Below, in pieces: positions 3,960-13,607 of a stretch of 43,671 nt of DNA. The position numbers were made by a program, and so were the translations under genes. How positions within the stretch are numbered: position 1 is the stretch's first letter; each line of letters starts with the position of its first letter. Source of the stretch: Chrysochromulina tobinii (lineage: Eukaryota; Haptophyta; Prymnesiales; Chrysochromulinaceae); assembly GCA_001275005.1 (NCBI GenBank), contig JWZX01003082.1, positions 1 through 43,671 on the forward strand, in the 5' to 3' direction. The notes under the pieces were generated by a model. That model worked only from the letters and a program-made list of their open reading frames with translations, did not search any database and was not told the origin of the DNA.

Positions 3960-5668
3960 ATGGAGCTCGAAGGGCAGGAACTCGTGCCTGCCGACGCCGA
4001 AGCATCGAACGAAGCAGCGAGTAGTAAAGACGCCGCCAGCCAGCCCCCCGCCTCGATTTGCTCGGGAATCCTCAATCTCGCCAATACCATCATCGGCTCG
4101 GGTTTGCTCAGTCTGCCGTCTGCATTTGCCCGCTGCGGCTTTGTGACCGGCTCGTTGCTCCTACTCATCTTTGCCGCCTTTTCAGCACTCGGGCTGCATC
4201 TGCTATCCGCAGCCTCCGATATCTCAGGCCGGCCAGCCTCGCTCTACACGGTCGCCGAGAAGGCACAGCCCAACCTCGGGTTGCTCGTGGATGTGGCGAT
4301 CGGCATCAAGTGCTTTGGTGTGGCGACGACGTATCTCATCGTCGTGGGCGACTCGCTGCCACTCGCGCTCGAACCGCTCGGCGCGACCGGCGCGCTGCTT
4401 GATCGTCGGCTTTGGTCCGCGCTGGCAGCTCTAGCAGTCGCTCCGCTCGCGTATAGGAAGCGCATGGATGGGCTACGACACACATCGCTCATAGCGATCC
4501 TGTCGGTGCTCGTCATCATGGCGGTGGTGATCGCCTTTGCAATTGGCCCGGCGCTCTCGCCTGCACTAGACCCGTGCGCGAGCACCTCTGCGCAGAGCTC
4601 GTGTCGCGCAGAGGGCGCAGAGGTGGTGTGCAGTTGCCGAGGACCCGTCGTCGCCGTCAGCGACGCGTCGTCGATACTTCGCGCGCTGCCCATCTACACG
4701 TTCGCGTACACGTGCCATCAGAACATCGTGAGCATTAGCAACGAGATGGCCCTGGATGGGCGGCCGGCGCCCGAGCGCGTCATCCGTGTCATCCAAGGCG
4801 CTCTACCCTTCGCTCTCGCCGTCTACTTTTCCGTCGCCGTCGCTGGTTATTCCACATTTGGGAATCGTGTGGCTCACGATGTCCTCACCTCCTACCCCAG
4901 CTCGCCGCTCGTCTCTGGCGCGCGGCTTCTCGTCGCAGGTGGGGACCACCGGGCTTTGAGTGCCTTCTGAGTGCCTTCTGAGTGCCTTCTGAGTGCCTTC
5001 TGAGTGCCCATCTGAGTGCCATCTGCGTGCCCTCTGAGTGCCCTCTGAGTGCCCTCTGCGTGTCAGTTGATAGCTTTCTGATCGCCATCTGATTGCCACG
5101 CGTCCCATGTGCTCGGATGCTCGTCGCAGTGCTCGTGATGTTCTCGTATCCGCTGCAGAGCCACCCGGGTCGCGCGTGTGCCCTCTCGATAGCTTCCGCA
5201 GCCGCCGCAGCCCTTGAACGGCGGCGGCGGCAAAGGAGTGGCCCCCGCGCCATCTCCAGCAGTCAGGCGCACTCAGCCACGCCTGATGGCTCCTCACGCC
5301 GCAAGGGCTCCTTGGACCACATGACACGATGTCGTCAATGGCCCTGTTTCTTCAATGGCCCCTCGGAAGACCCCACGGGCCTGCCGCTGCCGCCACTGAC
5401 AGAGTCAGACACTGCGCGAGCGCTCGCGACGACGCTCTTCCTGGCCGTCACAACAAGCACGGCTATGGCGCTCGATGACCTGGGCATCGTGCTCTCAGTA
5501 GTGGGCGCGACGGGCTCCGTGGTCGTCACGTACCTGCTGCCAGGCTTCTGTTACTACCGGCTGTGCCGACAGCCGCGAAGCTGGTTGCGACGTGCAGCAC
5601 TCTTGCAGACGCTGCTTGGCGCGATACTCATGCCAGTGTCGCTGGCGCTGATCATGACCAAAAAGTGA
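3960..5668 (+). CDS. AAAP-family (SLC38/Avt-like) amino-acid transporter, two exons
   Basis: Multi-pass membrane carrier that probably moves neutral amino acids with a proton or sodium ion across the plasma or vacuolar membrane. Exon 1 is 3960-4938 and exon 2 is 5130-5668, giving 505 residues in frame. The family signature LNLANTIIGSGLLSLP starts the first membrane segment; ALPIYTFAYTCHQNIVSISNEM and, after the splice, VLVMFSYPLQSHPGR match the typical order in SLC38/Avt proteins. Exon 2 ends with membrane segments around TTSTAMALDDLGIVLSVVG and TLLGAILMPVSLALIM. An upstream in-frame ATG at 3870 would add 30 residues, but these are Gly-rich and encoded by a G-run, so the start at 3960 is preferred. 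The splice joins A to V in phase 1. The intron is unusual (separate entry). Confidence 0.85.
4939..5129 (+). other. Minisatellite intron with flanking 10-bp direct repeat (introner-like)
   Basis: A 191-base intron of the amino-acid transporter, from GTGGGG to GCAG. The last ten exon bases before it, CTCGTCGCAG (4929-4938), are repeated exactly as the last ten intron bases (5120-5129). If one copy and the intervening sequence are removed, the transporter reads straight through (ARLLVA then VLVMF). Inside lies a tandem array of about 11-bp units (TGAGTGCCTTC and variants). Duplicated target bases straddling a splice site are what an inserted intron would leave behind. Confidence 0.7.
4957..5061 (+). 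repeat. 11-bp minisatellite, unit TGAGTGCCTTC
   Basis: Five nearly exact units of TGAGTGCCTTC are followed by degenerating units (TGAGTGCCATC, TGCGTGCCCTC, TGAGTGCCCTC). The array fills over half of the transporter intron. Its GAGTGC core recurs in the importin intron array and near 43160. Confidence 0.9.
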
Positions 5669-7895: not shown

Positions 7896-10800
7896 TCGGG
7901 GTCCCGGTCACCGTCGACATCCGCCGCGCCGCTGTCCGCCGCAGGAGCACCGGAAGCACCCTTGGCGTTGATGGAGGCCACCAGAGCCGCCATAGCGCTC
8001 GGCGGCTTGTCGTCGTCGCCAAAGTCGATGCAATCTTCAAAGTCGAGGGACTGCGGGGTTCGGAGGGCACGCCACGCGCGAGATCGCACGAGATCGCACG
8101 AGATCCTCAGCAGGTGATCGCGAGCGCCCAAATTAGGAAGGTGGGGGATAGGAGGAGACGGCACGCGCGGCGATGGCGGCGAGGCGGAGGGGAGCGAAGC
8201 GGTGGGGAGCGGGAGGGAAATGAGGCATCGGATAGGAGCGAAAGACTTAGATGCAATCCGCATCATCAGCGCGTTGTCGAGAGTTTAGGACGGATCGTCA
8301 TTTGCCAACCCATGGGCAATCCCAGGGTCTACACGCGAGGGCGGCGGCGCGGAAGGCGGCGAGGGGGGCAGGGCGGCGGCGGGCGAGGGCCAGCACGAGG
8401 CAGCTGGAATGGCCATCCGGGGCAATCTCAGCCAATCTCGTCCATCTCGGTCCATCTCCGCGCACACCTGGAGTACCCGGGGGAGTAGCTGTGGAAGGAT
8501 TGGGGCCACGTCCCCTTGCAACAACTCCGAGAGCTGGGCGAAGAAGCCGTAGCTGCGAGGGGGGCGATGGGGGCGGAGAGGCGAGGGTAGGGTGGGGGGT
8601 AGGGGTGAGTTCGGCGGTGTGAGCATCGAGAGGGCTTGGAAGCTGATGGTCCCCCGCTGGCAGCTCGCTACTGAGCAGCCAAGGGCAGCCAAGGCTAGGC
8701 GCCGCAAGCCCAAGCTGCTGCCAGGCCAGCTGATGTCAGGCCGCCGCCCAAGGGAGCCGAGGGGTGGCGCGCGGGTCCGAAATACAGGTGGGTATCGCGG
8801 TTATCGTCAGCGGATGATCTGTTTGGCTGAGACGATGGATTCGTCATTCCCGCGGGGGAAGGGGGCAGGGCAAGGGCGCCCGCGAGGCACTGCCTAGGAA
8901 CTGGCGAGGAGCTGGCTAGGAGCTGGCTAGGAAATGGCTAGGAAATGGCTAGGAACTGGCAGGGCGCTGCTGAGAGGGCCGTTGGAAAGGGGCCGAGGGC
9001 CGCGCACGTGTATTCACGAAGCTCTGGCAGATCCAGTTGCAAGCCCTCGAGCGCTGCAGCGGTCACCTCGGGCAGTACCGGTTCACAGACCTCACGCCCG
9101 ACCGCGAGGTTCATCAGTCCAATGCACTCGAGGGCGCGCGCACGCAGCGTCAGCTCGCCGGCGCCCGTCTGATGCAGCAACACTCGCACGAGAGAATAGA
9201 TCGTCTCAAAGTACGGCCGGAACTGCTTACCCGCGGACATGGCGACAGCGGCGAGGGCCGAGATGGCCATCTCCTGGGTGGCCCGCGTGGAGTCGCGAAG
9301 CAGTGCGGTGAGGCGCTCGAGTAACGGCTGCAAAAAGGGCACGATGTCGTCGCCTGCGAGGAGGTGGGGACGGGCGAGGGGTGAGGTGACCTCCTCCGTG
9401 CCCCTTCCTAATTAGGGTGATGTGCCTCTTCCTTATTAGGGTGAGGTGAGCTCTCCTGTCCCAGGGGGGGCGGGGGAGAGCGGGGAGCGAGATGGACTTG
9501 GGTCGGCCCTCCCTCTCCCGAATTAGGAAGGACTGGGGTCGGCCCTCCCTCTCCCTAATGAGGGTCGGCCCTAAGACAGGTGTAAGGTCTCCTCACGACG
9601 CGTGAACGAGCCACGTGGCCGCGGTAACGACCAGGCGGCTCGCCCACGGGGGTTCAGTTGCCAGTAGTCAAAGAGGTTACGGTGTCGTCATCGGGTCAGG
9701 GTGGCGGCACGGCGTCGTGCTGGGCGATGTGACGCACCCAAGTTTTCGCAGAAGCTCTCGAGGGCATAGCAACTCTTCTCCTTGACACGCTCCGTGGCGT
9801 CGTTGAGCACCTGGCAGAGGGAGACGCACTCAGGCGCACTCAGGCGCACTCAGGCGCACTCAGGCGCACTCAGGCGCACTCAGCCGTACTCAGCCGTATG
9901 CAGGGGCGCGTGCAGGGGCGCATCGCTCAGTCAAACCGCGTGTGCCCTCAGCTTGAGCGCAGAGGCTCGTCTCGGAGAGAAGATTAGTACGAAAGCTGTG
10001 TGTCGTCACCGCGATGCGGCCACGCCAGGGCGAGGGCAAGCAGCAGCCAGGGCCGCCGCAGCCAGGGCGAGGGCAACCCGCAGTGTGAAGGCGGGCGGCG
10101 GCGGGCGCAGGCAGTTACAGGTGCGGAGTTACATGTGCGCAGTCGCCATGGTCGCAGCAATCAGAGGCCATCCGAGGCCATCCGAGGCCATCCGAGGCCA
10201 TCCGAGGCCATCCGAGGCCATCCGAGGCCATCAGTGGAGCAAGCATCGCACCATGAAGATGTGCGGCAGGATCTCCTGGTAGTGCGAGATAATGTCCGGT
10301 TGCAGATAACATGCGAATTCACCGATGCAGATGCATGCGGCCTCGCGCACCGGCTGCGCTCCGTCACGACAGCCGGCGAATACGACAGGTAGGAGTGCAT
10401 CGAGCGCGTCGGCGTATGCCTCGGCGCAGCCTTCGGCGGTCATCGCGAGCGCCACAAGCACCGCCCGCCGCCACGCGAGGTGCTCGGAGCAGTGGTGCTG
10501 CCGAACCAGATCCAGGATCGCCGGTACCGCGTGCTTGGATGGGATACTCACGCCAAGCGTGTGGAAGACCTGCGCGGCGCGCCGGTGGACGGACACCTCG
10601 TCCTCGTCGTCCTCATCGTCCTCAATCGCACCCGAGGCGTCCGTAGTCGCACAGGCCTCGAGTAGGCGCATCGTCAGCGCCGGGACGAGCTTGTGCTTGA
10701 CGATCGTCTTCTTCTTATGAGCGAGCGCACAGCCCACGACGTTCAGAGCGACCACTCGTGTCTCAACCTCCATCGAGGGGGCGTTGGCGAGTGCGAGCGC

Positions 10801-13371: not shown

Positions 13372-13596
13372 ACGCTGCCGGGGCACGAGCACAAAGGGAT
13401 GAGGGGGCACAGGGTGAGGGCGTGCGCGCACGGAGCAACTAGCGTGACGGAGCGCCCGCGGGTGTCGAGCGGCTGGGCGCGCAACGCTGCCGGGGCACGA
13501 GCACAAAGGGATGAGGGGGCACAGGGTGAGGGCGTGCGCGCACGGAGCAACTAGCGTGACGGAGCGCCCGCGGGTGTCGAGCGGCTGGGCGCGCAC
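13372..13596. repeat. 112-bp tandem duplication
   Basis: A unit containing GCACAAAGGGATGAGGGGGC occurs twice with a 112-base period (for example at 13389 and 13501), with almost no differences. The period is not a multiple of three, so duplication shifts any reading frame through it. This suggests non-coding or decayed sequence. Confidence 0.9.
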
Positions 13597-13607
13597 CGCC
13601 CGCGTCG

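Follow-up and report, generated by a model that had tools for sequence, protein, structure and literature searches.

Probable introner-like insertion of a dispersed minisatellite in an amino-acid transporter gene of Chrysochromulina tobinii

An amino-acid transporter gene of Chrysochromulina tobinii is interrupted by a predicted intron whose last bases repeat the end of the exon before it, which raises the question of whether this intron arrived as an insertion that duplicated its target. The gene lies in the 43,671-nucleotide stretch of contig JWZX01003082.1 (assembly GCA_001275005.1) analyzed here, hereafter called the window. Among the best 120 of 1,750 matches to the DBP5 helicase of this genome, metagenome proteins ranked closest, and the nearest with a name were from haptophytes (Calcidiscus leptoporus 55%, Pavlovales sp. 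57% over 61% of the query). The origin of introns is a long-standing question, and this compact genome holds thousands of matches to the cassettes described below. We estimate a probability of about 0.85 that the transporter intron is an introner-like insertion of a piece of a dispersed minisatellite, here termed family M, accompanied by a target duplication of ∼35 bp.

The transporter intron and the repeat across its splice sites

When the two exons are joined (Table 1), they encode a 505-aa amino-acid transporter (Aa_trans, PF01490, Pfam E 1.2e-62), whereas the unspliced frame reaches a stop after 10 codons beyond the junction; the intervening 191 bp would be removed by splicing. The initial annotation had reported that CTCGTCGCAG ends exon 1 and recurs as the last ten bases of the intron, and that removing one copy with the intervening DNA restores an uninterrupted transporter frame, and we found both to be so. 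It had also taken these ten bases to be the duplicated target. A duplication is present at the splice sites, but its length is ∼35 bp rather than 10, as the best ungapped segment at a lag of 191 has 26 of 35 positions identical. This duplication is degraded (74% identity), and the intron tail, read in the frame of the exon, gives ARMLVA where the exon end gives ARLLVA.

Table 1. Coordinates of the transporter gene, its predicted intron, and the associated repeats in the window
Feature	Positions	Strand	Basis
Exon 1, amino-acid transporter (residues 1-326)	3960..4938	+	frame, Pfam, own-genome protein match
Target duplication copy 1 (exon end), 26/35 identical to 5095-5129	4904..4938	+	lag-191 comparison
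Perfect 10-bp core, copy 1, CTCGTCGCAG	4929..4938	+	sequence
Predicted intron, GTGGGG...CGCAG, 191 bp	4939..5129	+	removal restores Pfam domain
Minisatellite body, sense CTGAKTGCC units (8 exact; 11 if one mismatch is tolerated)	4957..5098	+	
Target duplication copy 2, supplying 3' splice site AG	5095..5129	+	lag-191 comparison
Perfect 10-bp core, copy 2, CTCGTCGCAG	5120..5129	+	sequence
Exon 2 including stop codon	5130..5668	+	frame, Pfam

Across positions 3960-5668, lags of 60-399 yielded eight segments scoring at least 11, seven of which are the intron array matched against itself; the eighth is the 35-bp repeat, which ends at both splice positions. Elsewhere in the window, 33 segments scored at least 12.5 across 17 tiles of 1.7 kb from which arrays had not been removed. 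A repeat of this score is thus not rare in a repeat-rich window; the unusual feature is its position at both splice junctions.

We compared this position with other introns using a self-trained gene finder, which predicted 81 introns in 252.5 kb (33 sequences, the same ones on which it was trained). These sequences comprised the window, 7 loci chosen by the 10-mer, 10 by similarity to the transporter, and 15 by place, the last lying mostly on contigs already sampled, with seven overlapping loci excluded. The gene finder set the transporter acceptor wrongly (at 5369), so the homology-supported acceptor was used in the tests, and other models are surely imperfect. Five of the 81 introns scored at least 8 between exon end and intron end, as compared to 0.05 expected from intron swaps, and the excess persisted (4 of 80) when the transporter, which had prompted the test, was left out; the converse comparison of intron start with the start of exon 2 gave 4 of 81 against 0.10 expected. 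The excess of exon-end/intron-end repeats over chance for which the initial annotation had proposed a test is therefore present in this non-random sample of introns.

The intron could instead be an old one in which a minisatellite grew internally, with the end repeat arising by chance. The splice consensus does allow exon ends and intron ends to share CAG, a 10-bp identity in one gene is weak, and segments scoring this high are common across the window. At the junction, however, only 1 of 6,480 swapped pairings among the 81 predicted introns scored as high as the transporter match (this null has a tail, with a maximum of 15.5), the body is that of a dispersed family whose other members have such duplications, and most paralogous loci read straight through the site, as described below; we regard an old intron as very improbable indeed. 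A chance 10-bp match is likewise disfavored by the extension to 26 of 35 and by the swap test.

The spliced protein gave 16 matches in its own genome, on the contig of the window and ten others. At 8 of 10 paralogue loci (L011, L012, L013, L015, L016, L018, L019, and L021), a match in a single frame spans the intron site, with that of L021 being weak (E 0.003). The match in L022 stops short of the site, although its 513-aa open frame aligns across it, and that in L017 ends at residue 318. None of the ten loci showed a break at the intron site. Three metagenome proteins (P0001, P0002, and P0003; 99, 98, and 94% identical over ∼65% of the query) diverge from the transporter exactly at the junction and end soon after, as would frames entering the intron. 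These near relatives thus appear to bear the intron, the start of which is read in them only as protein tails, and the tails differ from one another and from the window, which is consistent with a changing array. In P0004 (53%) and most lower relatives the sequence continues through the site, but some of the lower relatives are spliced annotations, which makes the paralogues from the same genome the better comparison. Read most simply, these results indicate that the intron was gained in this lineage before its split from the three near relatives.

Other features of the window include a 112-bp unit present twice at 99% (13372-13599), which coincides with a predicted 222-bp intron on the minus strand (13375-13596), and a 727-aa frame (260-2443) that joins a DIOX_N/2OG-FeII oxygenase to a TauD-type dioxygenase domain. 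At 9825-9893 and 10160-10232, an importin-like gene on the minus strand has a 441-bp predicted intron with two 10-bp minisatellites, one of them of the TGAGTGCG type. An Rfam scan of the window gave no match.

Dispersed families and their flanking duplications

All eight exact CTGAKTGCC units in the window lie within the transporter intron, which is therefore a family M intron. The units of this family, CTGAKTGCC(T), include CTGAT forms that presumably fit the yUnAy branch consensus. Across the genome (53.15 Mb in 2,253 contigs), a three-unit pattern of family M had 3,460 matches (1,668 + 1,792; one array may give several), its 3' end TGATTGCCTCCCTCATCAG had 3,713 (1,815 + 1,898), and a rarer left end, GTGAGTCTCGTCAATTGCCTC, had 56 + 29. 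A second cassette, GCATGCAAGTGCTCACCACGGCG, which defines family A, had 2,333 (1,126 + 1,207). The reversed motif, used as the control for these genome-wide counts, had 0 matches in every case. The clustering of intron bodies by sequence that had been proposed thus leads to families with thousands of genome matches. The inserted body had been described as a minisatellite rather than a recognizable transposon; it is indeed a minisatellite, but the minisatellite is itself the dispersed unit. The inserted sequence is common to introns at unrelated sites, including those in the unrelated genes at L008, L080, and L085.

Both families occur in the sense orientation within predicted introns. At least two M units were found in sense in 13 of 81 (transporter included) and in antisense in 0, and the corresponding numbers for family A were 8 of 81 and 0, a bias that the strand-specific intron model of the gene finder may strengthen. 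The predicted introns (12,272 bp) held 17 exact CTGAKTGCC units, with the transporter intron accounting for 8, and the predicted coding sequence (174,483 bp) held one such unit and one occurrence of family A.

Viral carriers of the families were considered and set aside. A single IMG/VR contig (L100) matched the 23-mer of family A, as it did a probe of the initial 19 bases, and three family M patterns had no match in IMG/VR. This 4,554-bp contig ends in a family A cassette (4495-4517) followed by ACAG/GTGAG, and the five of its 22 listed ORFs that were scanned had no Pfam match. The contig may be algal DNA that was classified as viral.

We then looked at the flanks of loci taken around the first listed exact matches (40 M and 20 A, not a random draw), leaving out L043, L051, and L061 because of incomplete flanks, for 37 M loci. 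With sequence common to several loci masked, a direct repeat scoring at least 12 flanked the array in 17 of 37 M loci, as compared to 1 of 1,332 swapped flank pairs, and flanked the cassette in 10 of 20 A loci, as compared to 0 of 380; the remaining loci (20 of 37 and 10 of 20) had no flanking repeat above threshold. The M control reported here masks 12-mers common to other loci. Without masking it was spoiled by matches between elements (25 of 37 loci and 22 of 444 swaps at or above 12), and masking 9-mers was too harsh (4 of 37 and 0 of 1,332).

The M duplications measured 17-35 bp in 14 simple cases and 57-85 in 3 compound ones, with a mean identity of 96% over the 17. Among 11 A cases, six had duplications of 35-41 bp around inserts of 35-49 bp (edges set by hand) in which the cassette sequence is nearly constant; the other five retained a repeat of 16-32 bp, to which unmatched bases are joined in some, as though through decay of the intronic copy. 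These lengths of 17-41 bp differ from the short target duplication (3-9 bp) of a MITE-like element. Terminal inverted matches were at most 4 nt in 18 of 19 inserts, with 6 in L063, so that inverted ends of 6 nt or more, as in MITEs, were lacking overall. M inserts begin and end at varying phases of the unit. Duplications this long and variable, in the near absence of inverted repeats, are unlike the work of a classical cut-and-paste transposon.

Splice signals and restored frames

For 32 cases (19 M, 11 A, L008, and the transporter), we asked whether exact excision of the insert plus one copy gives GT/GC-AG ends. It did in 11 of 19 M cases, 9 of 11 A cases, L008, and the transporter, these being raw counts, chance solutions included. 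GC donors account for 5 of the 20 M and A solutions (L042, L045, L057, L058, and L090), and 3 of the 20 (L042, L049, and L075) fall inside the repeat, off its edge. L080 likewise yields GT-AG if its two copies may differ by one base. No canonical exact-excision solution exists for 2 of 11 A loci (L091 among them) or for 8 of 19 duplication-flanked M loci (L046, L047, L048, L052, L054, L060, L065, and L078). These eight arrays may be unspliced insertions, non-genic sites, users of unusual splice sites, or, in L046, a compound repeat.

Two layouts recur among the solutions. In the first, the donor is a GT of the target at the upstream edge and the acceptor is the end of the insert, CCCTCATCAG or CCCCACAG. 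In the second, used by the transporter and L008, the donor is the left edge of the insert, and the second target copy ends downstream in the AG that serves as acceptor. The closest twin of the transporter intron is that of L008 (674-765, 92 bp), which consists of a minisatellite body plus a 34/35 copy of the exon end and whose removal restores the helicase motif LIFSQ/FTMML. Another predicted intron, in L031 (2011-2093), lies at the same LFSQ-motif codon in a different helicase-like gene (LLFSQ/STQML), and its exon-end repeat, with just 7 identical bases at the end, does not reach the threshold score. These introns at the LFSQ codon may occupy an old position common to both genes, or a favored site may have received insertions more than once.

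The joined frame is open for 150 bp on both sides in 15 of 32 cases and is not in 17, and for family A the frame is often open unspliced as well; short exons are common, and some of the loci lacking an open frame may lie outside genes. Pfam domains extend over the restored sites in L008 (Helicase_C), L080 (JmjC), L085 (DSPc), and L017 (Aa_trans). At the transporter, L008, L080, and L085, an insertion within an exon thus appears, judging from the sequence, to have made an intron, and taking this intron out restores the reading of the gene. To look for empty sites, the L085 protein was compared with its relatives, none of which was close (best match 50% over 61%).

Origin of the intron and comparison with known systems

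Because repeats alone are weak evidence, the case for insertion rests on the dispersed body and the swap controls. The proposal that the intron arrived as a target-duplicating, introner-like insertion draws support from the repeat excess, the dispersed body, and the 8 of 10 paralogues that read through. The likely order of events would begin with a piece of family M, a dispersed minisatellite bearing splice signals, inserting into the coding strand of the transporter and duplicating ∼35 bp of target, of which the upstream copy would have remained exon. The left edge of the insert would have supplied the donor GTGGGG, and the AG ending the downstream target copy would have become the acceptor, such that splicing would take out the insert together with one target copy and restore the message. 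Because duplication length and array phase vary and inverted repeats are nearly absent, we favor a cassette that would be copied into a widely staggered nick or break, whether templated by repair or target-primed, over cut-and-paste by a transposase. Insertions in genes would persist only where orientation and position allow good splicing, and such survival could by itself explain why the families lie in sense and why GT or AG stands at their edges.

A local tandem duplication, either of a piece of exon or of an intron end with an exon start, in which the minisatellite grew later, has a precedent in a potato RdRp intron described as arising from duplication across an intron/exon border (available part of PMC4974935), and local tandem copies of the family A cassette, arranged as if an intron end and an exon start had been duplicated, were seen in L090 and in the L008 intron at 407-571. 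However, the bodies are common to unrelated genes, in the transporter (array self-matches aside) the match to the upstream exon is confined to the last 35 bp of the intron, and the L085 cassette lies within the DSPc domain, where the sequence just before it is coding and offers no intron end for duplication. Tandem duplication is disfavored as the sole source by the dispersed bodies and by this lack of a parental intron end in L085, and we consider it quite improbable for the transporter. Intron gain by local duplication resembles what we describe in pairing a copy of the upstream exon with the 3' intron end, but it acts locally and inserts no dispersed cassette.

A further possibility is repair of a double-strand break with staggered ends, in which filling of the overhangs would create the repeat and a captured filler would later serve as intron, with no mobile element involved. 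In what is available of the report on Daphnia neointrons (PMC4202315), the exon end is repeated at the opposite end of the intron, the same footprint as in the transporter, with repeats of 4-12 bp attributed to break repair. The varying unit phases at which M inserts start and end, and the near absence of terminal inverted matches, are also as expected of captured fragments. The filler seen here is not random, however, being drawn from two families with thousands of matches and in sense throughout the 81 predicted introns; the family A cassette is nearly constant in its six short inserts; and our duplications exceed those of Daphnia, where that part of the report describes no dispersed shared body. 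Break repair as the whole account is thus unlikely, although the cassettes may still spread by way of it.

Among known systems, the proposed insertion is closest to the introners of Gozashti et al. (2022; PMC9860276), which, going by the available part of that paper, are likewise short intron-making elements in coding sequence that recruit a splice site from the target duplication and whose hosts are mostly aquatic. The two layouts found here correspond to its Fig. 2B and 2C, the latter drawn from a Chrysochromulina sp. genome. Its introners differ from ours in duplication length (3-9 bp for previously characterized families and 4 and 8 bp in the legend examples, as compared to 17-41 bp), and our inserts, unlike them, have hardly any inverted repeats and, in family M, are minisatellites. 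The introner elements of Amoebophrya (PMC7789003, as far as available) also have direct repeats over the exon/intron borders and are dispersed intronic elements, but with inverted repeats of 8-20 nt, direct repeats of 3-5 nt, and many non-canonical splice sites. Literature searches covering listings and the opening of abstracts, outside preprints and most subscription journals, brought up no paper describing introners in haptophytes, with minisatellites or with long duplications.

The stated pipeline in PMC9860276 discards low-complexity families manually and, at both splice sites, demands similarity that begins no more than 10 intronic (or 5 exonic) bases away. These are filters for detection and do not define what an introner is. 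Judged by these filters as stated in the part available, a minisatellite such as family M would not pass the first, and the second is at odds with shared sequence lying 17-41 bases from the splice site wherever the target copy is intronic. Families M and A should each be caught by one or both, and comparable activity could therefore go unnoticed in other genomes. We regard it as an even call whether the introns of this haptophyte are now arising in bulk from a ∼40-bp branch/acceptor cassette and a minisatellite, copied without a transposase into exons at widely staggered nicks with duplications of 17-41 bp, as a class that escapes such screens.

Some of the target duplications are long and fresh enough (as in the 17 M cases above) to allow the insertion to be read base by base, and both ways of recruiting a splice site, from a target GT upstream or a target AG downstream, are seen side by side. 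The minisatellite nature of the inserted body suggests, further, that what spreads can be the tandem repeat itself, given its splice-like units. If it is true that this class of cassette escapes introner screens, intron gain through such cassettes may be widely undercounted.
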